A stretch of 8,852 bases of DNA from assembly GCA_026981635.1 (NCBI GenBank), contig JALSIF010000301.1, positions 1-8,852 of the forward strand, given 5' to 3'. A program made the translations under genes and the position numbers. A model generated the notes under the pieces. The model saw only the letters and a list, made by a program, of their open reading frames with translations. It was not told the DNA's origin and did no database searches. Positions 1-8,852 of the stretch are shown piece by piece. The DNA is from JALSIF01 sp026981635 [NCBI: bacterium]. Its GTDB lineage: Bacteria > 4484-113 > JALSIF01. The number at the start of each line of letters is the position of its first letter. The first letter of the stretch is position 1.

Positions 1-1839
1 CTTATTAACGACATCCTGGACTTCTCCAAGCTGGAGGAGGGGAAGGTGGAGCTGGAGGAGATCCCCTTCAATCTCCACCAGCTCTGCTACCGGACGGTGC
101 GGATCTTCTCCGGCCAGGCCCAGGAGAAGGGGATTGAGCTGATCTGCTCGCTGGGAACTGAGGTCCCCATGGGGGTAAGGGGGGATCCCACCCGGCTCAA
201 GCAGGTGCTCATCAACCTGCTTAGCAACGCCATCAAGTTTACCGACGATGGTGAAGTGCGCCTGGAGGTGAGGGAACTTGAGCGGGTGGAGGGGGAGCGG
301 AGCCGGTTGGAGTTTGCTGTGGTGGATACTGGCATCGGCATCCCCGAGGAGAAGCTGGAGCAGATCTTTGAGACCTTCACCCAGGCCGACAGTTCGGTCA
401 GCCGCCGCTATGGGGGGACCGGACTGGGTCTGGCCATCTGCCGCAAGATCGTTGAGCTGATGGGCGGCAAGCTCATGGTGGAGAGCAAGGAGGGGGAGGG
501 GACCCGCTTCTTCTTCCAGGTTGAGCTCCCCCTGGCCGAGGTGGGGGAGATGGAGATACCGGAGCTACCTCGGGAGGTGGCCGGGATGGTGGTCCTCATC
601 GTGGATGACAACGCCACCAACCGGCGCATCCTGGAGGGCTACCTGGAGAGCTGGGGAATGGAGGAGATCGTCTCCCTGCCCAGCGGGGAAGAGGCCCTGA
701 GCTACCTGGATGGCCTTACCCGGCGGAAAAAGCCGCTGCCCGGGCTGATCATCACCGACGCCAACATGCCGGGACTTTCTGGGCCCGAGTGGATTGAGCG
801 GGCGCGGGCCCAGTTTGACCTCAGCGAGACCAAGGTGCTCCTGCTTACCTCCTCCCTGGCGCTGGAGGCGGAGGAGCGGGAGCGGCTGGGGATCGGTGCG
901 GTGGTGTTTAAGCCGGTGATGCCGGAGCAGCTCTACCGCCACATCCTCAGACTCACCGGCCACCTGGCCGAGGAGGTGGAGGAAGAGGGGGCTGAAGCGG
1001 GGCGGGTGATCCTAAGCTCCAAGGCGCGCATCCTGGTGGTGGAGGACAACCCGGTCAACCTCAGGGTGGTGGCCAGTCTGCTGGGGCAGCTGGGGCTGGA
1101 AAACATCTCCACCGCTGGGGACGGGCGCCAGGCGGTGGAGCTGGTCAAGTCGGGCCGGTTTGACCTGGTACTGATGGATGTGCAGATGCCGAGGATGGAC
1201 GGGTTGGAAGCCACCCGGGAGATCCGCCGCTTTGAGGAGCAGAGCGGCCGGCCCCGGGTTCCCATCGTGGCCCTTACCGCCCACGCCCTGCCGGGTGACC
1301 GGGAGCGCTTCCTCAAGGCGGGGATGGACGACTACCTGACCAAGCCGGTTGACCCCAAAGAGCTGGAGCGCACCCTGGCTCGCTGGCTGTCGGTCGGGGA
1401 GGGAGACCGGCGGAGGGAGACTGGACCCCCGCCAGGGGAGGGAGAGCCGGCCCCGGCCGCTTCCCCTGCGGCCAGCGACAACGGGAAGCGGGCACGGCCG
1501 GTGGTGGAGATGGAGGAGCTTATGCTCCGCATGGGGGGGAACCGGGAGCTCCTGGCCGAGGTGGCCAAGGTCTTTCTGGAGACCTACCCGGAGCAGCTGG
1601 GGAAGCTCGCCCAGGCGGCCAGGGCGGGCCATGGGGAGGAGCTGTGGAAGATCGCCCACTCCCTGAAAGGCTCGCTGGCCAACCTCTCGGCCAAGGAGGC
1701 CAGTGAGCTGGCGGCACAGGTGGAACGGCTGGCCAAGGGGGGGGAGGTGGAAAAGGCGGCGGCGCTGGCCGGCCGGCTGGAAGAGGCGGTCCAGGCGGTG
1801 GCGGAGGTGCTCAGGCGGGAGATGGAGAAGGTGGGCTAG
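1..1839 (+). CDS. Hybrid sensor histidine kinase, two receivers plus HPt (5' partial)
   Basis: The reading frame is open from base 1, so the gene starts before the window; 612 residues are visible (numbered from base 1). It begins with [15 protein letters not shown], the end of a HisKA dimerisation helix. The phospho-accepting His box, about 40-45 residues earlier, and any sensor or membrane part are outside. An HATPase_c domain follows (about 20-178): N box with N72/N76, D109 in DTGIGIP, and the G2 box YGGTGLGL near 137-144. Receiver 1 (about 197-320) has D202/D203, phospho-acceptor D253, T283 and K304. Receiver 2 (about 343-464) has E348/D349, D393, T426 and K448. A Pro/Gly-rich linker (about 465-500) leads to an HPt domain with H553 in AHSLKGS. 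All key phosphotransfer residues present in the window are intact, so this looks like an active BarA/ArcB-style relay kinase. The stimulus is unknown. The next gene begins 6 bases downstream and is a plausible phosphate acceptor. Confidence 0.95.
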
Positions 1840-1845
1840 GCGGGG

Positions 1846-3039
1846 ATGCGGGTACTCATCGCCGACGACGACCTCATCTCTCAGCGGATCCTCTCCTCCG
1901 CCCTGGAGAAGCTGGGCCACCAGGTGGAGAGCGCCCGCGACGGCAGGGAGGCGTGGGAGAAGTTCTGCCAGGACCACTATGAGGTGGTCATCCTGGACTG
2001 GGTGATGCCGGGGATGAAGGGGCCGGAGGTGGCCCGGCGCATCCGGGAGGAGGCGAGGGACTACTATCCCTACGTCATCCTGCTTACCTCCCTGGACGAG
2101 AAGGAGAACCTGATTGAGGGGCTCCAGTCGGGGGCCGACGACTATCTGACCAAGCCGCTGGACCCGGCTGTACTGGAGGCGCGGCTGGCGGTGGCCAGGC
2201 GAATCGTTGAGCTTGAAGAGAGCCTGAAACAGAAGATTGAGGAGCTCTCGGAAAAGAACCGCCGCATCAGCGAGGAGCTCAGGGCCGCCTCCCGCATCCA
2301 GGCGGCCCTGCTGCCCAGCCCGGCGGTGGTGGGGCCGCTGGAGATCGCCTGCTACTACCGGCCCAGCGAGGAGCTGGGCGGGGATCTGCTTAGCTTCTTT
2401 CCCCTCAGCGACCGGCTGCTAATGGCCTACCTGCTGGATGTGAGTGGCCACGGGATGAGGGCCTCCCTGCTCTCGGTCTCCCTGGGCTACATCATCTCCA
2501 GCAAGTCCAAGCAATACTTCAACCGGGACGGCGGCGAGGCGCAGGGTGAGGGTCTGGGGAAGAGGCTGGTTGAGCTGGTGGGGGAGCTAAACGAGGAGCT
2601 TCAGCTCCTTGCCCAGACCGGCCAGTACTTCACCATCGCCCTCTCCCTGGTGGAGCTTGACCGGCTCACCCTCCACCTGGTCTCGGCGGGGCAGCCGCCG
2701 GGCCTCATCGTGAGGGCCGACGGGGGAGAGGAGTGGCTGGACCTACCCGGCTTTCCGGTGGGGCTGGTGGAGGAGGCCGACTATGAGGTGCAGAGCAGAG
2801 CCCTCTCTCCCGGTGAGGTGGTGATCTTCTACTCCGACGGCATCACCGAAGCCCGCTGCGGGGAGGGCAGGCCCTTCGGGCGCGAGGCGCTGCTTGGGGG
2901 AGCAAGGCGGGGGGCCAGGGGGGGAGCCATGCGGGTGCAGGCGGAGATCGTCTCCGACCTCAACGACTGGCTAGGGGACCACCCTCCCCAGGACGACATC
3001 TCCCTGCTGGTGCTGGGGGTTAGGGGAGAGGGGGGCTAG
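1846..3039 (+). CDS. Response regulator with RsbU/SpoIIE-type PP2C phosphatase output
   Basis: A 397-residue cytoplasmic protein. Residues 1-125 form a receiver: D7/D8, phospho-acceptor D51 in LDWVMPG, T81 and K103. Residues about 122-155 are a Glu/Lys-rich coiled-coil linker ending in RIQAALLP, typical before SpoIIE domains. Residues about 165-395 are a PP2C/SpoIIE serine phosphatase with metal-binding acids D180 (GGD), D198 (DVSGHG), D331 (YSDGITEAR) and D383/D384 (QDDISLL). Two small departures from the RsbU pattern are GGDLLS where GGDxxD is common, and AGQPP where AGHPP is common; neither removes a metal ligand. Family knowledge: such proteins dephosphorylate STAS-domain anti-sigma-factor antagonists when activated. 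The gene lies 6 bases after the kinase, with the weak AGGCGGGG before the ATG, so translational coupling is likely. The kinase's HPt is the obvious donor for D51. The stop codon overlaps the stop of the convergent gene. No anti-sigma or STAS gene is visible in the window. Confidence 0.95.
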   Translation: MRVLIADDDLISQRILSSALEKLGHQVESARDGREAWEKFCQDHYEVVILDWVMPGMKGPEVARRIREEARDYYPYVILLTSLDEKENLIEGLQSGADDYLTKPLDPAVLEARLAVARRIVELEESLKQKIEELSEKNRRISEELRAASRIQAALLPSPAVVGPLEIACYYRPSEELGGDLLSFFPLSDRLLMAYLLDVSGHGMRASLLSVSLGYIISSKSKQYFNRDGGEAQGEGLGKRLVELVGELNEELQLLAQTGQYFTIALSLVELDRLTLHLVSAGQPPGLIVRADGGEEWLDLPGFPVGLVEEADYEVQSRALSPGEVVIFYSDGITEARCGEGRPFGREALLGGARRGARGGAMRVQAEIVSDLNDWLGDHPPQDDISLLVLGVRGEGG

Positions 3040-3680
3040 TCCCAGCCCTCACCCCCGTAGGACATCTGCCAGAAGCGCTCCTCGTAGTGGCAGGTGAGGA
3101 CGAAGTTCTCCTCCATCTGGGCAAGCTCCTCTGGATCTTCGCCCGCTGCGATCCGGTCAAGGCTCTCCCCCAGCCAGGCGACGAAGGCGGCAAACTCGGG
3201 GGTGGTCCAGTTGTCTATGAACTCCTGCCAGGGGGACTCCCCTTTAAGGTTCTCCTTTACCCAGCTCCAAGCCTCGTGGTAGGCCCGCTCCAGGGTCCAG
3301 AGGGCGGTAAAGCAGACGGGGAAGCTCTCCCGGTAGGCCAGGCGCAGGAGGTAGTCGGTGTAGGCCCGGCAGGTGGGGAGGGGCTTTGCACCGGCAAGGT
3401 CCACCCCCGCCCGCTCGGCCATTTTGCGGAAAAGCTCAAGTTCGTCCAGCATCACCCCTACCGACCGGCCCAGGCTCTCCATGAACTCCCCCGGCGCGCG
3501 GGCAGAAAGCAGGGCGAGGAAGCGGGTGTAGTCCACCCCGAAGAGGTAGTCCTGGATGAGCCACTGGGCGAAGACCGGCTGGGGGATGGTGAGGGCGGCG
3601 GTCTCCTCCAAGAAGGGGTGGTGGGTGGCCCGGTGCCACAGGGAGGCGTGTTTTTCTAGAAGCTCACTGGTAAAGCCCAT
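3036..3680 (-). CDS. TenA-family protein lacking the catalytic cysteine (TenA_E-like)
   Basis: A 214-residue all-helical TenA/THI-4/PQQC-family protein. It starts with the family's opening (HPFLEE) and has QDYLFGVDY with D44, matching the pyrimidine-binding Asp44 of Bacillus subtilis TenA. The C-terminal ENFVLTCHYEERFWQMSY matches the family motif that carries the catalytic Glu (E200 here). The usual active-site segment LxPCxxxYxE is replaced by ALWTLERAYHEAW (126-138), which has no Cys; the only nearby Cys, C123, lies about seven residues too early when the conserved Tyr is aligned. E131 sits next to the vacant position, the arrangement described for TenA_E proteins. Family knowledge: TenA_E proteins salvage aminopyrimidine breakdown products of thiamin to HMP, and some are reported to take the N-formyl form. 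Which substrate applies here is inference. The gene is second of two TenA genes, 12 bases after the first, with a strong Shine-Dalgarno. Confidence 0.88.
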   Translation of the reverse strand: MGFTSELLEKHASLWHRATHHPFLEETAALTIPQPVFAQWLIQDYLFGVDYTRFLALLSARAPGEFMESLGRSVGVMLDELELFRKMAERAGVDLAGAKPLPTCRAYTDYLLRLAYRESFPVCFTALWTLERAYHEAWSWVKENLKGESPWQEFIDNWTTPEFAAFVAWLGESLDRIAAGEDPEELAQMEENFVLTCHYEERFWQMSYGGEGWD

Positions 3681-3686
3681 CCTCGC

Positions 3687-3693
3687 ACCTCCT
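3687..3693 (-). promoter_or_regulatory. Strong ribosome binding site of the second TenA gene
   Basis: On the - strand AGGAGGT lies 6 bases before the ATG at 3680. Its first base is the last base of the upstream gene's TGA stop (3695-3693), so termination and re-initiation sites touch. This fixes the start and points to coupled translation of the two TenA genes. Confidence 0.85.
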
Positions 3694-4385
3694 CAGGCGA
3701 TCTCCTCCGGCCACCCCTCCAGGGTCCAGCCCATCTGCCAGAACATCCACTCCCAGCGCACCGCCTCGGCAAAGATGGCCGAAAGCCGCTGGTGGCGGGG
3801 GAGGGAGGGGTCGGTCACCCCGGCCTCCTCGGCCAGCCGGTCGGTGAGCTGGCGGAACTCGCCGCACAGCCCCACCCACTCGGGGTCGGAGTACATCTCA
3901 ATCCACTCGTGGTAGGGGCCCGAGGTGGGGCGACCCTCCAGGCCGGCCAGGCGGGTGCCGATCTCGGCGTAGCCCACGAAGCAGGGGGTGAGGCAGACGG
4001 CGATGTCAAGGAGGTCTCCCTGGTTAGCGGTGGCCAGCATGAAGCGGGTGTAGCCCAGGGTGGTGGGGGCGGGGCTGGCCTTTTCCAGCTCCTGCCGGCT
4101 GATGCCGTTTCGCTCGCAGTAGCTTCGGTGGAGCTCCATCTCGGTGTTCAGGGTCACTTCGGTGAGCTTGGCAAAGAATCCCTGGCGCTCCACCGTGTCG
4201 GCCTTGGCCGAGCCCAGCGCCAGCACCCGGCAGTAGTCAATCAGGAAGAGGTAATCCTGAATCAGGTAGTGGCGGAACTTCTCCTCCTCCAGGGTGCCGG
4301 CGGCGAGGGCCTCCACGAAGGGGTGGTGGGCCGCCCGCCGCCACAGCTCCCGGTGGGCTGCGATGAGCTGGTCGGTCAGTCCCAT
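3693..4385 (-). CDS. tenA: TenA-family aminopyrimidine aminohydrolase / thiaminase II (Cys type)
   Basis: A 230-residue TenA-family protein with the classic catalytic set. D44 in LIQDYLF corresponds to B. subtilis Asp44. C135 in LTPCFVGYAEIG corresponds exactly in number and context to the nucleophile Cys135 (LLPCYWLYYEVG). E212 in RWEWMFWQMGW corresponds to Glu205. Family knowledge: this class hydrolyses 4-amino-5-aminomethyl-2-methylpyrimidine to HMP, salvaging the pyrimidine of degraded thiamin, and can also cleave thiamin. The enzyme is expected to be a cytoplasmic homotetramer. The ATG at 4385 has only a poor Shine-Dalgarno (GGA four bases ahead, in TGGAACCATG); an ATG at 4393 is out of frame. 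The previous gene ends 37 bases upstream, leaving little space for a promoter, so read-through from the lipoprotein gene is likely. No thiamin-pyrophosphate riboswitch consensus is seen here. It is paired with a Cys-less paralogue immediately downstream. Confidence 0.92.
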   Translation of the reverse strand: MGLTDQLIAAHRELWRRAAHHPFVEALAAGTLEEEKFRHYLIQDYLFLIDYCRVLALGSAKADTVERQGFFAKLTEVTLNTEMELHRSYCERNGISRQELEKASPAPTTLGYTRFMLATANQGDLLDIAVCLTPCFVGYAEIGTRLAGLEGRPTSGPYHEWIEMYSDPEWVGLCGEFRQLTDRLAEEAGVTDPSLPRHQRLSAIFAEAVRWEWMFWQMGWTLEGWPEEIA

Positions 4386-4422
4386 GGTTCCATTTTAGGT
4401 CGCCGGGGGGACCAGCTGGCCC

Positions 4423-6216
4423 TCACTCCTGGATGGCGAACTTCACCTTGCTGTCGGTCAGGGTGTGGTAGGCGATGGCGATCTTGCCGTTTATGACTGC
4501 AATGGAGGAGAAGGGGGAGGCAATGGTGTCATCTGTGTCCACCATCTGGGCCAGCCAGCTGCCCTGGCCGTTTGCTTGGGTTGCGCGGGCAAGTTTGATG
4601 CCCTTGACCAGCTGGTTGTCCTGGGTCCCGCCACCGAAGAAGGAGACCACCGGCTTGTTGTCCACTACCGTCATGTCCAGACCGCTGGGGAAGGTGAAGC
4701 CGTCCGATTCGTCGGCCAGTACCAGATCCCAGCTTCCCAGGCCGTCGGACTGGGAGCTGTAGGCATAGACCAAGCCTACCCCCAGTGCCTTGGTGTAGAT
4801 AACGGCGGGCTTGTTGTCTACCACGTAGAGCTTGATGGAACCTCCTGCCTCTATGGTTTGGGTGACCTCCTGGGTCTGCCAGCTACCTGTGCCGTCGGAC
4901 TGGGAGTTGAGGGCGAAGAAGACCTGGCCGTTCTTGGTGTATGCTACCGCTGGCTTGCCCTGCACCTCGGCGATGGAGCAGAGGTCAGAGCCAGCCTGAC
5001 CGGCGCCGGTGGTGACGGTAGAGATGTTCCAGCTGCCCAGGCCATCGGTGGTGGTGCTTACTGCGACTCTGAACTCCTCCTGGCCGATCCGGTAGCAGAT
5101 GGCAGGCTTGCCCCCCACCACGGTTAGCTCACTTACCATTCCGGCTATCTCCTGGTTGGGGGGGGCCACCGTTACCACATCCCACTGGCCCTGGCCGTCG
5201 GCCTGGCGGTTGATGGCGTACATCAGGGTGGTCCGGTTGGAGCCATCAAAGAAACTTACCGCCGGTCGCCCGTCCACGATGGCGAGGGAGGTGGTCCCTC
5301 CCACCGAGTCGGAGGCAAAGATGGACCCGATCTGCCAGCTCCCGGAACCGTCGGGCTGGGTGTTGATGGCGAAGTGGACCTCCACCGCCTGATCGGGCGG
5401 GTTGTTCTCGTTTAGGAAGTAGTAGGTCATGGCAGGGCGGCCGTCCACCTCCTTGAGGGATACGCCCGCCGTCCCTCCGATCTCTCCCTGGGTCTCCACC
5501 ACCTGGATGTTGAAGTTGAGCTGGCTCCCACCACCACCGCCACCGCTTATCAGGATGGGAACCGGGTCGGCTGGGTCCACGAAGGGGGTGCCAGCCACCT
5601 CTCCGGCGGCCAGAAAGACCTCCTCGTGGGCGGGGGCTGAGAGGTCCACCGGCACGGCGATGGGCAGGTAGCCGCTCTGGGTGGGCTGGGCAGCACTGTC
5701 AATCACATCGCTCAGGGGGTAGCTTCCCAGCAGGGGGGCGGTGGCGGGGTCAAAGTCGGCCTGGTACTGGTAGCGGCGGATCTCGGTTACCGAGGTGCCG
5801 AAGGCGGCCACCAGCAGGTTCACGTCGGCGAAGTTGACCTCGCCGTCGCCGTTGAAGTCGTGGGCCTGCTTGACGGTGGAGCCGTCTACCGACTGGCCGA
5901 AGGTGGCCACCAGGCCGTTTACATCGGCAAAGCTCACCGTCCCGTCGGCGTTGTTGTCACCGATGAGGCGAACCTCGGCGTGAACCAGACTGGCCGAGGT
6001 GTCCAGAGCGCCCTGGGGGTTTTGGGGGTCGGCGGGGTTGAGCTGCAGGATGGGCTGGCTTCCCTGGGCGGGAAGCTGGGCGATGGACCTGGTGAGGGCG
6101 GGGGGAGGGGAAGTCGGGCTGTCACCCTGCCGCCCGCCGCAGGCGGCAGATAGGCCAGCAACCATCCCAACGGCTAGAAGCAGCTGGACGAAGACAGAGG
6201 GTCTTATCCTGGACAT
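4423..6216 (-). CDS. Lipoprotein with dockerin-like EF-hand pair and seven-bladed beta-propeller (paralogue 1)
   Basis: A 597-residue secreted protein of unknown function. I chose the ATG at 6216 because AAGGAGGAAGGG precedes it directly and the signal peptide then starts normally; a longer frame to 6255 would add 13 hydrophilic residues and has no such site. Residues 1-26 form a lipoprotein signal peptide, hydrophobic core VQLLLAVGMVAGL, ending in LSAAC; Ser at -3 makes the lipobox slightly atypical. Two dockerin-type D-x-N-x-D-G-x-V-x-F-A-D-V-N calcium loops sit at about 87-107 and 120-140. A conserved connector (about 145-222) ends in a six-Gly linker (225-230). Residues 233-597 hold seven approximately 50-residue repeats, each with V-D/N-G-R/K-P-A-V-x-Y/F, and six with DGxGSW-like turns (289, 340, 391, 441, 491, 549). 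The strand NFNIQVVE before repeat 1 supplies the missing last strand, so the ring closes. It has a close paralogue upstream. No enzyme active site is recognisable; a binding or surface-display role is inference. Confidence 0.88.
   Translation of the reverse strand: MSRIRPSVFVQLLLAVGMVAGLSAACGGRQGDSPTSPPPALTRSIAQLPAQGSQPILQLNPADPQNPQGALDTSASLVHAEVRLIGDNNADGTVSFADVNGLVATFGQSVDGSTVKQAHDFNGDGEVNFADVNLLVAAFGTSVTEIRRYQYQADFDPATAPLLGSYPLSDVIDSAAQPTQSGYLPIAVPVDLSAPAHEEVFLAAGEVAGTPFVDPADPVPILISGGGGGGSQLNFNIQVVETQGEIGGTAGVSLKEVDGRPAMTYYFLNENNPPDQAVEVHFAINTQPDGSGSWQIGSIFASDSVGGTTSLAIVDGRPAVSFFDGSNRTTLMYAINRQADGQGQWDVVTVAPPNQEIAGMVSELTVVGGKPAICYRIGQEEFRVAVSTTTDGLGSWNISTVTTGAGQAGSDLCSIAEVQGKPAVAYTKNGQVFFALNSQSDGTGSWQTQEVTQTIEAGGSIKLYVVDNKPAVIYTKALGVGLVYAYSSQSDGLGSWDLVLADESDGFTFPSGLDMTVVDNKPVVSFFGGGTQDNQLVKGIKLARATQANGQGSWLAQMVDTDDTIASPFSSIAVINGKIAIAYHTLTDSKVKFAIQE
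5645..5976 (-). repeat. Near-identical dockerin/connector block, copy in paralogue 1
   Basis: This 332-base stretch encodes both EF-hand loops and the connector. It matches 7697-8031 at about 95% by my hand alignment: roughly nine substitutions plus a one-codon indel region near 5755-5764. It includes identical runs of 101 bases (5765-5865) and 68 bases (5909-5976). Synonymous sites are conserved too, unlike in the propeller parts of the same genes. Confidence 0.9.
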
Positions 6217-6221
6217 CCCTT

Positions 6222-6227
6222 CCTCCT
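6222..6227 (-). promoter_or_regulatory. Ribosome binding site that fixes the lipoprotein 1 start
   Basis: AGGAGG on the - strand, 5 bases before the ATG at 6216, within AAAAAAGGAGGAAGGG. It lies inside the longer open frame, which argues that translation starts at 6216 and not at 6255. Confidence 0.8.
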
Positions 6228-6247
6228 TTTTTGACAGGTTATTTGAC

Positions 6248-6393
6248 CCGAGCACAACCAGCTCGGAGAAAAGCGGCCGTCCTTTCGGGTGGCCGCTGGG
6301 AGATAGCTTGGCTCCCCTACCGCTCTACCTTCCTCTCTGGCAAGGACAAGCGCAGCAGAAAGTAGGAAGAGGTGGGAAGACAAGTTATCTCCC
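6248..6393 (-). promoter_or_regulatory. Structured leader upstream of lipoprotein 1, possible attenuator
   Basis: Read on the - strand, three stem-loops follow each other: GGGAG/CTCCC (6316-6312 with 6302-6298, 9-base loop), AGCGGCC/GGCCGCT (6297-6291 with 6278-6272), and CCGAGC/GCTCGG (6266-6261 with 6253-6248, 7-base loop). An upstream GGGAGATA (6393-6386) is perfectly complementary to TATCTCCC (6305-6298), which contains the 3' arm of the first stem, so the two pairings exclude each other. The middle stem looks like a terminator. This is attenuator or riboswitch architecture, but I match no known riboswitch class, and no protein-coding leader peptide is evident. The remaining spacer holds no promoter I would defend. 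Confidence 0.4.
6269..6297 (-). terminator. Candidate intrinsic terminator in the lipoprotein 1 leader
   Basis: A 7-bp GC-rich stem AGCGGCC/GGCCGCT carries a 12-base loop that can add CC/GG closed by a GAAA tetraloop. On the - strand it is followed at once by TTTTCT. It lies 54 bases upstream of the ATG at 6216, leaving scarcely any room for a promoter after it. It may therefore act as a conditional terminator, or as the end of the upstream lipoprotein transcript. The T run is short. Confidence 0.45.
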
Positions 6394-6398
6394 CGAAA

Positions 6399-6467
6399 GC
6401 AGTTTAGCACGGTGGAACCGGTGGGCATACAGCAAGCCCCTGCCCCCGGTTCCGGCAGTTTAGACGG
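6399..6467. repeat. Bulged hairpin bracketed by 13-14 base direct repeats
   Basis: GCAGTTTAGCACGG (6399-6412) and GCAGTTTAGACGG (6455-6467) differ by one deleted base. Between them, with one spare base on each side, lies a 13-bp stem: GGAACCGG, a bulged T, then GGGCA (6414-6427), pairing with TGCCCCCGGTTCC (6441-6453) around a 13-base loop. It begins 28 bases past the stop of lipoprotein 2 on the - strand, so it may stabilise or end that transcript, but no T run follows on that strand. The packed repeat-hairpin-repeat layout also resembles a tiny insertion with target duplication. Confidence 0.6.
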
Positions 6468-6495
6468 CTCAGCCGGAGTCTCTTCTTTTGTCCGC

Positions 6496-8280
6496 CTACT
6501 GACCGAGGGCGAACCAGAGCTCTCCGGTCTGGAGCTTGTGGTAGACGATGCCCACCTGGCCGTTTACCTCGGCGATGGAGGTGCGGGGGTACATTTGGCC
6601 CTGCTTGTCCACCGCCACCCCACTCCAGCCGGTGAGTCCGTCGCTGGATGAGCTCCTTGCCAGGCGGATGCCAGAGGTAATGTCATCTCCCGGGCCAGCT
6701 CCCCAGAAGCTTACCGCCGGCCGTCCTCCGATCAGGGTGATGGCAACACCGGTAACTGGCTCAAAGTTTCCGCCACTGTCGTCGGCGGTGATGATCTGCC
6801 AGCTCCCCGAGCCGTCGGTAAGGTCGCTTAGGGCGTAGCCCAGAGAGGGAGGGGTGAGTATCTGGTAGGCGATGGCCGGCCTGCCGTCTGCGGTGACCAC
6901 CATGTCAAGGTAGGGGCCGGCAGTGAGGTCGCTGGTGAGCTGGTAGCTCTGCCAGGTGCCGGTGCCGTCGGGCTGGTCGTTGATGGCGAAGTAGAGGTTG
7001 GCCCCCTTGGTGTAGGCGACGGCGGGCCGGCCCTCTACTTCGGCGATGGCGCACCAACCTCCTATCCCCACGCCGGAGGGAGCGGTGTCCACGGTGCTGA
7101 TGTTCCAGCTGTCCAGCCCATCGGCGGTGGTGCTTACTGCTGCGCGGATCTCGCTGTTTGAACCCACCGAGTAGCAGACGGCCGGCTTGCCACCTACCGT
7201 GGTGAGGTCGCTGGTCATGCCGATGGCCGTCTCGGGGTCCTGGTCTACGGTTACCACCGTCCAGCTTCCCTGGCCGTCGGCCTGGGAGTTGAGGGCGTAG
7301 TGGAGGGCCGGATTGGTGCCGTTGAAGAAGGTGACCGCCGGCCTGCCATCCACCTCCGCCAGGGAAGTAACCAGCCCCACCGAGCCCGAACTGAAGATGG
7401 TCCCGATCTGCCAGCCGCCAGAGCCGTCGGGGTTGCTGCTGATGGCAAAGCGCACCTGGATAATGCTGTCGCCGGGAACTCCGGTGTTGTAGTAGTAGGC
7501 GATGGCGGGACGGCCATCAATCACTGCCAAGGTGGCGCCGGCAGTCCCTCCGGTCACCGGCGAGGCATCCACCACCTGGCGGTTGAAGCCCAGCGGGGCG
7601 AGGCTGATGGGGACCGGTGTGGCGGGGTCCAGGAAGGGCTCGCCCGCCACCTCGCCGGCGGCGATGAAGACCTCCTGGTGGGGACCCATGCTGGTGTCCA
7701 CCGGCACGGCGATGGGCAGGTAGCCGCTCTGGGTGGGCTGGGCGGCGCTGTCCATCACATCGCTCAGGGGGTAGCTTCCCAGCAGGGGGGCGGTGGTGGG
7801 GTCAAAGTCGGGGCCGTCATACTGGTAGCGGCGGATCTCGGTTACCGAGGTGCCGAAGGCGGCCACCAGCAGGTTCACGTCGGCGAAGTTGACCTCGCCG
7901 TCGCCGTTGAAGTCGTGGGCTTGCTTGACGGTGGAGCCGTCTACCGGCAGGCCGAAGGTGGATACCAGGCCGTTTACATCGGCAAAGCTCACCGTCCCGT
8001 CGGCGTTGTTGTCACCGATGAGGCGAACCTCCATGCGCACCACACCGGCGGTGGGGTCAAAGGCCCCCTGGGGATTGGAGGGGTCAACCGGGTTTAGGGT
8101 AAGGATGGGCCTACCCCCCTGGGCGGGAAGCTGGGCGGTACCTTTTGAGGCCGACGCCAAGTCGGGCTGGGGGAGATGTTCTCCCCGGCTTGGCAACCGC
8201 TCGGCGCGGCAGGAAGAAAGCCCCGTCAAGACCGCAAGGAGAAGTAGAGTCCAGTTCCCGAGCTTGCCGGAAAACCCCAT
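6496..8280 (-). CDS. Lipoprotein with dockerin-like EF-hand pair and seven-bladed beta-propeller (paralogue 2)
   Basis: A 594-residue paralogue of the next gene downstream, with the same order of parts. The signal peptide has core TLLLLAVLTG and a textbook lipobox L-S-S-C (C24). A short variable tether leads to LPAQGGRPIL-type sequence shared with the paralogue. EF-hand-like loops at about 90-110 and 123-143 carry the dockerin D-x-N-x-D-G pattern. The connector is at about 148-225. Seven propeller repeats fill 231-594, with DG-x-G-x-W-like turns at 285, 335, 387, 438, 489 and 547 and VDGRPAV-like strands in each. The strand GFNRQVVD before repeat 1 probably completes the last blade. The poly-Gly linker of paralogue 1 is absent. 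The turns recall sialidase Asp boxes (D five residues before W) but the glycine is shifted. The protein is expected to be anchored outside the cytoplasmic membrane; ligand and function are unknown. The aconitase gene ends 84 bases upstream, so it could be co-transcribed or separately promoted. Confidence 0.88.
   Translation of the reverse strand: MGFSGKLGNWTLLLLAVLTGLSSCRAERLPSRGEHLPQPDLASASKGTAQLPAQGGRPILTLNPVDPSNPQGAFDPTAGVVRMEVRLIGDNNADGTVSFADVNGLVSTFGLPVDGSTVKQAHDFNGDGEVNFADVNLLVAAFGTSVTEIRRYQYDGPDFDPTTAPLLGSYPLSDVMDSAAQPTQSGYLPIAVPVDTSMGPHQEVFIAAGEVAGEPFLDPATPVPISLAPLGFNRQVVDASPVTGGTAGATLAVIDGRPAIAYYYNTGVPGDSIIQVRFAISSNPDGSGGWQIGTIFSSGSVGLVTSLAEVDGRPAVTFFNGTNPALHYALNSQADGQGSWTVVTVDQDPETAIGMTSDLTTVGGKPAVCYSVGSNSEIRAAVSTTADGLDSWNISTVDTAPSGVGIGGWCAIAEVEGRPAVAYTKGANLYFAINDQPDGTGTWQSYQLTSDLTAGPYLDMVVTADGRPAIAYQILTPPSLGYALSDLTDGSGSWQIITADDSGGNFEPVTGVAITLIGGRPAVSFWGAGPGDDITSGIRLARSSSSDGLTGWSGVAVDKQGQMYPRTSIAEVNGQVGIVYHKLQTGELWFALGQ
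7697..8031 (-). repeat. Near-identical dockerin/connector block, copy in paralogue 2
   Basis: This 335-base partner of 5645-5976 contains the matching identical runs 7820-7920 and 7964-8031. It carries one extra codon in the connector (QYDGPDFD here, QYQADFD in the other copy). Outside this block the two genes align only as moderately similar repeats. Confidence 0.9.
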
Positions 8281-8289
8281 CTTCTTCTT

Positions 8290-8295
8290 CCTCCC
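8290..8295 (-). promoter_or_regulatory. Ribosome binding site of lipoprotein 2, next to a small stem
   Basis: GGGAGG lies 9 bases before the ATG at 8280, separated by AAGAAGAAG. Its first two G's belong to the arm ACTCGG (8299-8294), which can pair with CCGAGT (8328-8323) across a 23-base loop, so access to the site could be modulated. This is a weak inference from a 6-bp stem. Confidence 0.5.
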
Positions 8296-8336
8296 GAGTG
8301 CAGTTTTCCCCTTGGCAAGCTTACTCGGCTTTGCTG

Positions 8337-8359
8337 TCAGGTTAGCTAACTGAGCCTGA
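8337..8359. repeat. Inverted repeat between acnA and lipoprotein 2
   Basis: GTTAGCTAAC (8341-8350) is a perfect 10-base palindrome. It extends with one bulged G to TCAG...CTGA, and TCAGG/CCTGA arms (8337-8341, 8355-8359) enclose it. It lies just after the acnA stop. On the - strand no T run follows, so it is a poor terminator for acnA; on the + strand TATTTTTA follows, but there is no + gene to end. It could be an operator. Otherwise the 84-base gap 8281-8364 shows only the small stem at the ribosome binding site. Confidence 0.35.
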
Positions 8360-8364
8360 TATTT

Positions 8365-8852
8365 TTACCCCTTTGCTCCCACTTCTGCTTTCAGCAGCTG
8401 GCGGAGCACGAAGGGGAGGATACCGCCGTGGCGGTAGTACTCCAGCTCCACCTCGTTGTCCAGGCGGGCCACCACCTGGAACTCGCGGGTGGAGCCGTCG
8501 TCCCGGCGGGCGAGGGCGGTCAGGGTCTTTCTCGGGGTGAGGCCGTCGGCGATGCCCTGGATGGTGATGGCCTCGCGGCCGGTTAGGCCCAGCTTCTGCC
8601 AGCCCTCGCCGGGCATGAACTCCAGCGGCAATACCCCCATGCCGATGAGATTTGAGCGGTGGATGCGCTCAAAGCTCTGGGCGATCACCGCCTTGACACC
8701 CAGCAGGGCGGTCCCTTTGGCCGCCCAGTCGCGGCTGGAGCCGGTGCCGTACTCCTTTCCCGCCAGCACCACCAGGGGGACGCCCTCCTCCTGGTAGCGG
8801 CAGGCGGCCTCAAAGATGGTCATCTCCTCTCCCTCGGGGAGTTTCAGGGTAT
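8365..8852 (-). CDS. acnA: Aconitate hydratase A, C-terminal part (5' truncated by window edge)
   Basis: The frame is open to the edge of the window. About 161 residues are visible, of the roughly 890-900 usual for AcnA/IRP-type aconitases. They are the C-terminal swivel domain: TLKLPEGEE then [10 protein letters not shown], then the hallmark [15 protein letters not shown] and [20 protein letters not shown], ending with the AcnA-like [19 protein letters not shown]. In GSSRDW the first Ser (residue 38 from the edge) and the Arg two positions later (40) match the catalytic Ser642/Arg644 region of mitochondrial aconitase. The [4Fe-4S] cysteines lie in the part not shown. The enzyme interconverts citrate and isocitrate in the TCA cycle. 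An internal ATG at 8823 is not the start, since family sequence continues upstream of it. The aconitase call is secure; the AcnA subtype follows from the motif wording and the C-terminal extension of sequence after the hallmark. Confidence 0.96.

Follow-up and report, generated by a model that had tools for sequence, protein, structure and literature searches.

We analysed a window of 8,852 nucleotides (positions 1 to 8,852, forward strand, of contig JALSIF010000301.1, assembly GCA_026981635.1) from the bacterium JALSIF01 sp026981635, in which two tandem open reading frames (ORFs) on the minus strand, P0002 and P0001, encode lipoproteins that combine a dockerin-like pair of EF-hands with a predicted seven-bladed propeller. 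The two proteins are 58% identical across their alignment. An initial annotation, made from the letters alone, had described in both a lipobox, an EF-hand pair, a connector stretch and seven repeats of about 50 residues, and this build was found in both genes. Each protein starts with a signal peptide that ends, as judged by eye, in a lipobox (LSSC in P0002, SAAC in P0001), and each gene has a ribosome site, GGAGGA (8289-8294) at 8 nucleotides before the ATG of P0002 and AAGGAGG (6222-6228) at 5 nucleotides before an ATG at 6216 in P0001. The program-made list had placed the start of P0001 at GTG 6255, but ATG 6216 was preferred because of the AAGGAGG ahead of it, so that the gene covers 4423-6216 and encodes 597 residues. 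The lipoprotein assignment therefore holds for both proteins, which are probably exposed at the outer surface. The features are collected in Table 1.

Table 1 Features of the tandem lipoprotein genes, with positions in the window
Feature	Position	Strand	Basis
P0002 (paralogue 2), 594-residue lipoprotein with lipobox, predicted sandwich-nested dockerin and seven-bladed propeller	6496..8280	-	ORF list, model
P0002 signal peptide and lipobox LSSC (Cys24, +2 Arg)	8209..8280	-	Sequence
P0002 predicted sandwich strands A and B, residues 60-87	8020..8103	-	AlphaFold model
P0002 dockerin-fold EF-hand pair, residues 84-145	7846..8031	-	Dockerin_1 24.2 bits; 2y3n_B E 2.4e-6; 1.3 Å over 60 residues
P0002 predicted remaining sandwich strands, residues 144-226 (formerly the connector)	7603..7851	-	Model and structural match
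P0002 predicted seven-bladed propeller, residues 231-594	6499..7590	-	Repeat profile, AlphaFold, structural matches
P0001 (paralogue 1), 597-residue lipoprotein, build as P0002, true start ATG 6216	4423..6216	-	
P0001 signal peptide and lipobox SAAC (+2 Gly)	6139..6216	-	Sequence
P0001 predicted sandwich strands A and B	5965..6048	-	Alignment to P0002
P0001 dockerin-fold EF-hand pair	5791..5976	-	Dockerin_1 24.5 bits
P0001 predicted remaining sandwich strands	5548..5796	-	Alignment to P0002
P0001 predicted seven-bladed propeller	4426..5520	-	Seven repeat units; profile match E 1e-62

The EF-hand pair has the features of a dockerin (PF00404). Two canonical calcium loops, DNNADGTVSFAD and DFNGDGEVNFAD, are present in each protein and follow the DxNxDGxxxxxD pattern, and both P0001 (24.5 bits) and P0002 (24.2 bits) passed the cut-off of Pfam Dockerin_1 (22.9). 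The fold agreed with this assignment. The top structural match of a model of the region was the dockerin chain 2y3n_B (type II cohesin-dockerin, Bacteroides cellulosolvens), which shares the two F-hand calcium loops and superposed over 60 of 60 residues (Z 9.0, 38% identity) with a root-mean-square deviation (rmsd) of 1.3 Å. The pair would accordingly be expected to bind calcium. In an alignment of the same region from the class to which this genome belongs (hereafter the class), each of the two calcium loops is followed by a strongly conserved DITPIA motif, in place of which the window proteins carry ADVN. This position is possibly a partner-facing surface.

The stretch that follows the EF pair, residues 148-225 of P0002, had been taken for a separate connector. 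The model and its structural matches indicate instead that it is the second half of a fibronectin III (fn3)/immunoglobulin (Ig)-like sandwich interrupted by the EF pair. In the first full-length AlphaFold model few aligned rows covered residues 1-230 of P0002, and no usable fold was obtained there, the predicted local distance difference test score (pLDDT) being mostly low. Partial collar rows were misaligned when added to the full-length alignment, and residues 50-240 were folded separately with 15 sequences. The resulting model (pLDDT 79, predicted template modelling score 0.73) runs through two strands, three EF helices and then the other strands, and the dockerin is thereby predicted to lie between the second and third strands of the sandwich. 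We refer to this composite as the collar. Its second structural match was an fn3 domain of NCAM (model residues 9-183, Z 7.6, 4.1 Å, 91 residues), whose alignment spans both sides of the EF insertion, and its strand order fits fibronectin III. Related proteins point in the same direction. Strand-like stretches were seen by eye on both sides of the EF pair in 12 EF-pair proteins of the same genome, the window pair included; these were chosen from search hits, the C-terminal dockerins of contigs C251 and C219 being left out. The class consensus carries LsWtY ahead of the pair and YrVvPyD...SNvV behind it, which we take to be fn3-like motif positions. Furthermore, a profile built from relatives only covered parts of both sandwich halves in the own-genome paralogues C138, C20 and C99, as well as in five cohesin proteins of the class.

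It might be argued that the nesting is a modelling artefact, that is, that an ordinary dockerin is flanked by an unrelated small domain or by unfolded chain. The failure of the first model over the collar would agree with this, and several other results also weigh against the nested reading. Foldseek returned no match at an E value of 0.001 or better for the collar model, and matches to transglutaminase, T-cell receptor and nanobody chains lay within 1 Z of the fn3 match. The profile made without the window proteins recognised the EF pair alone in P0001 and P0002, leaving their flanks aside, and in C235, C124, C83, C294, C290 and C142 it matched mainly the EF pair or one side. The C-terminal sandwich halves scored weakly in a profile comparison, one part of which was circular as C124 stood in both sets. 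An iterated profile did score the window collar at 86 bits, a value to be read with the proviso that this profile may have absorbed the window proteins. Since the relatives-only profile sees just the EF pair there, the nested reading of the window proteins rests on the collar model and the intermediate paralogues. Yet the confidence reached with 15 aligned sequences, the fn3 alignment across the insertion and the fn3-like consensus around the EF pair all argue against an artefact, which we regard as very improbable. The fold leaves the choice between fn3 and Ig undecided, because the Z scores of both types of match fall within 1 of each other, and Pfam fn3 had no match in the window proteins.

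Behind the collar, a repeat profile found seven units of about 50 residues in each window protein, the last of them a half unit. In a permuted register it again found seven units in both, from which it follows that the ring is closed by the N-terminal strand completing the last blade. An AlphaFold model of P0002 computed with 42 sequences (42 of the 43 listed rows, L122 being left out) had 263 residues at a pLDDT of at least 90; over residues 231-594 the mean reached at least 90 in 25 of 37 ten-residue blocks, the lowest block being at 66. Compared with 989 solved chains, this model gave as its top matches the propeller of CylK (Z 34.5-34.9 over 333-334 residues, 2.9 Å over 334 residues for the best, 9-10% identity) and then the Photorhabdus lectins PLL/PHL (Z 31-34, rmsd 2.1-2.5 Å over 305-312 residues, 12-15% identity). 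The closed seven-bladed ring that the initial annotation had proposed is thus confidently predicted, and it is also the ring of PLL-type lectins. No sequence relationship with these lectins was detected, as a profile of 41 propellers matched no PDB chain at E values up to 10. A search of the PDB with the single sequence of P0002 gave weak propeller matches (best E 0.021, a PqqB chain). No family of Pfam or NCBIfam covers the repeats of the window proteins, and none exceeded its cut-off there; the two scans comprised 8 and 9 proteins, respectively, relatives included and the products of two neighbouring TenA genes among each. The propeller fold is therefore known, and its sequence family is without a name in the libraries searched. 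The annotation had spoken of an architecture that it could not name, which is true of the repeats; the fold can be named, with PLL-type lectins and CylK as its nearest neighbours.

A few other assignments were considered and rejected. Sialidases rank behind PLL in Foldseek, with a larger rmsd. In relative L061, TT_ORF2a exceeded its Pfam cut-off (26.4 against 22.1) through 12-residue matches, no single stretch passing, and DUF4959 remained below its own (29.3 against 32.9); PRK10518, found when relatives were scanned with NCBIfam, reached 40 bits against a cut-off of 540. All three are regarded as repeat artefacts.

The number of repeats varies among relatives. Of 92 arrays counted on uncut frames, 40 had 7 units, 10 had 8, 8 had 13 and 7 had 14, and of 98 arrays in the permuted register, 53 had 7 and 10 had 14; as these relatives were collected with a seven-repeat query, they are not an unbiased sample. 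Five relatives from the same genome gave 11, 8, 7, 2 and 1 units. Either divergent arrays are undercounted by the repeat profile or their numbers truly differ.

These data bear on whether the propeller is a binding part or, as in CylK and in propeller polysaccharide lyases, an enzyme domain. Two results count against a lectin-like assignment. CylK, whose propeller belongs to an alkylating enzyme, heads the list and scores as high as the lectins, with lyases and glycoside hydrolases present lower down; and with no PDB chain matching the propeller profile, no comparison with the sugar residues of PLL could be made. However, the same positions are conserved in blade after blade, a pattern that points to several equivalent sites more than to a single active site, the blades of relatives L061 and L095 are near-identical by eye, and some arrays have 14 units. 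We therefore consider an enzymatic propeller very improbable.

The two copies have not diverged evenly. Their EF pairs agree at 97% of DNA positions, and of the 59 residues that are the same in both, 2 have synonymous changes; the propellers are 60% identical, and 72 of 178 shared residues have such changes (Fisher p 4e-9). Residues 146-200 are intermediate, being 88% identical with 4 synonymous changes in 46. Because the EF pair is nearly free of synonymous changes while the propeller has many, we conclude that gene conversion or recombination recently made the collar cores of the two copies uniform, the propellers having diverged. Selection on codons may alternatively have kept the synonymous changes low. 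The pattern fits a uniform mounting piece that carries variable binding parts.

Both modules were then followed in other genomes. The propeller occurs in several phyla: a scan of one genome per species yielded 128 relatives, and the best 80 of these came from records named Verrucomicrobia, Planctomycetes, Bacteroidetes, Chloroflexi, UBP7 and others. With P0002 alone at E 1e-5, matches were obtained in 14 of 60 genomes, which comprise every one of the 10 class genomes and 4 of the 50 from outside it. The propeller profile at E 1e-10 matched all ten class genomes, with 7 to 81 matches in each and 339 in total. Seven of the nine class relatives could be linked through shared 60-mers to named metagenome-assembled genomes, namely CSMAG_2248, 4484_113, SJ870, UBP7 HKST-UBA03, GMC4.metabat2.94, Ww346 and Zod_Metabat.1143. 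The collar profile at E 1e-12 matched 10/10 class genomes and 0/182 others, the absence outside the class being a sample result for these 182 genomes. With at most 18 candidates scored per genome, there were at least 18 collar matches in each of the nine relatives and 5 of 17 in the window's own genome; the latter arise partly by construction, both window proteins being among the 15 rows of the profile. We took 55 collar copies from among the matches listed, 6 or 7 per relative and for the most part the top-scoring ones. A strict pattern placed a lipobox-like Cys ahead of the collar in 39 of them and a relaxed pattern in 51; in the remaining four it was recognised by eye. The median distance from Cys to collar was 70 residues in the strict set. 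A class-wide expansion of the collar is thus supported by computation.

Some propeller relatives deserve mention in their own right. In the same genome, a frame of 3625 residues with the same propeller repeats (L041 5480-16354, contig C181) is cut by the contig end and has a hydrophobic N-terminus that looks pilin-like by eye, and another propeller protein (L043 1-1935, contig C62) is broken by an in-frame TAG, which may be an error of the draft genome or mark a pseudogene. Elsewhere in the class, several propeller genes lie in a run on one strand (L142, L150). A relative from Chitinophagaceae (L131) ends in a sorting tail of the type IX secretion system (TIGR04183), so that export of the propeller seems to follow different routes from one phylum to another.

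A dockerin raises the question of a cohesin partner. The initial annotation had noted that there is no cohesin in the window, which is correct, and the picture changes when the class is considered. Cohesin exceeded its Pfam cut-off in 9/10 class genomes compared with 1/14 controls, and Dockerin_1 in 10/10 compared with 2/14. The exception for cohesin is the window's own genome (85% complete), where all four hits were below the cut-off; in this respect the collar also differs from known dockerin systems. It is possible, though we hold it only tentatively, that the nested dockerin binds cohesins of other envelope proteins and that the lipoproteins thereby assemble, dependent on calcium, into a non-cellulosomal network on the cell surface that resembles the proposed planctosome. 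Several loci would suit such a network. The collar lies in the same chain as a cohesin at 5 of 11 cohesin loci, taken from 45 listed matches. L172 (28.3 bits) and L174 (24.3 bits, barely over the cut-off of 24.1; lipobox by eye) are small lipoproteins with a cohesin and without a collar. In the window's own genome, two adjacent tandem subtilase-like genes on contig C251 (L052 2410-5608) each end in a conventional C-terminal dockerin; the first scored 169.7 bits for S8 and 38.2 bits for Dockerin_1, and the second, recognised as a subtilase by eye, has a dockerin hit of 34.5 bits. This genome thus contains dockerin-bearing hydrolases, as would be expected of a cellulosome- or planctosome-like system. 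The EF loops of the window proteins are also alike, with FADVN in both, and like EF loops are a trait of dual-binding dockerins. Precedent is found in the available parts of PMC6461901 and PMC9012536. Against this stand the sub-threshold scores of the own-genome cohesins, the fact that no multi-cohesin scaffoldin was noticed among the 11 cohesin loci, and the small number of cohesins, which is 3-10 per class genome at E 0.01 and is to be compared with the number of collars in the nine relatives.

A bolder extension, which we rate as rather unlikely, is that the class envelope consists of many lipoproteins with an fn3-buried dockerin, docked through calcium to cohesins of adjacent lipoproteins and of secreted peptidases. 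This would make an interchangeable, non-cellulosomal coat in which exposed parts, many of them propeller lectins, are swapped and gene conversion preserves the uniformity of the docking collar.

The best reading of the locus, to which we assign a probability of roughly 0.55, is that a calcium-stiffened collar presents a lectin-like propeller on envelope lipoproteins. According to this proposal, the tandem genes would produce envelope lipoproteins in which the seven-bladed, lectin-like propeller is the binding part. Between lipid anchor and propeller would stand the composite collar, a fibronectin-III/Ig-like sandwich with a complete dockerin in its B-C loop. Two calcium ions would be expected to bring about the folding and rigidity of the dockerin and thereby to keep the shape of the collar. 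The propeller would most likely hold glycans or other surface ligands in inter-blade grooves, in the manner of PLL lectins. The collar would represent a standard head piece, spread through the class by copying into many lipoproteins whose outer parts differ, and in the tandem pair the binding parts would diverge while the collar is kept uniform.

The surrounding genes were also inspected. The pair is adjoined by two genes of the TenA family (Pfam scan). By eye, one flank reads as a receiver-phosphatase and a hybrid histidine kinase, and the opposite flank as an aconitase-like swivel domain. No neighbouring gene points to a pathway for the tandem pair. With respect to the NCBIfam thiaminase II cut-off of 130, the second of the adjacent TenA/THI-4 genes (3036-3680 and 3693-4385) passes at 155.7 and the first, at 88.8, lies below.

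Parts of this arrangement have counterparts in known systems. Dockerins together with cohesins outside cellulosomes, as in the class, appear in the portions at hand of the planctosome account (PMC6461901), which proposes peptidases linked through dockerin and cohesin, and of the account of proteins from anaerobic methanotrophic archaea (PMC9012536), according to which the role of non-cellulosomal dockerin-like domains is unsettled; these portions mention neither a sandwich nesting nor a propeller of the window type. Unlike known dockerins, the one described here is modelled as part of a sandwich domain, in its B-C loop, and stands close to the N-terminus of a lipoprotein. PLL lectins share the seven-bladed ring and, in the available sections of PMC6943638 and PMC12203525, have their sugar sites between blades; no collar like that of the window proteins is mentioned in those sections. 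Highly repetitive propellers, rings amplified from one blade (PMC9218822, in part), resemble the window repeats, which could not be placed among the families named in the accessible text of its section 12 (WD40, VCBS, RCC1, Asp-box and others). The motif strings NPAISYYD and NGNPAIS did not occur in the literature library searched, and searches that combined dockerin with fibronectin or with noncellulosomal terms, in texts partly available, did not find a sandwich-nested dockerin or its class-wide expansion in print. With a nameable fold, and with non-cellulosomal dockerins already known, the system does not count as a new kind.

What sets the finding apart is a dockerin apparently fixed inside another domain, beside a lipid anchor, and repeated in every sampled genome of the class. 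A named model for the propeller family, which extends over several phyla, would annotate many proteins, in view of the matches in the ten class genomes alone. The class collar offers a case in which to test whether a dockerin can act as a built-in calcium strut or as a socket that holds a surface coat.

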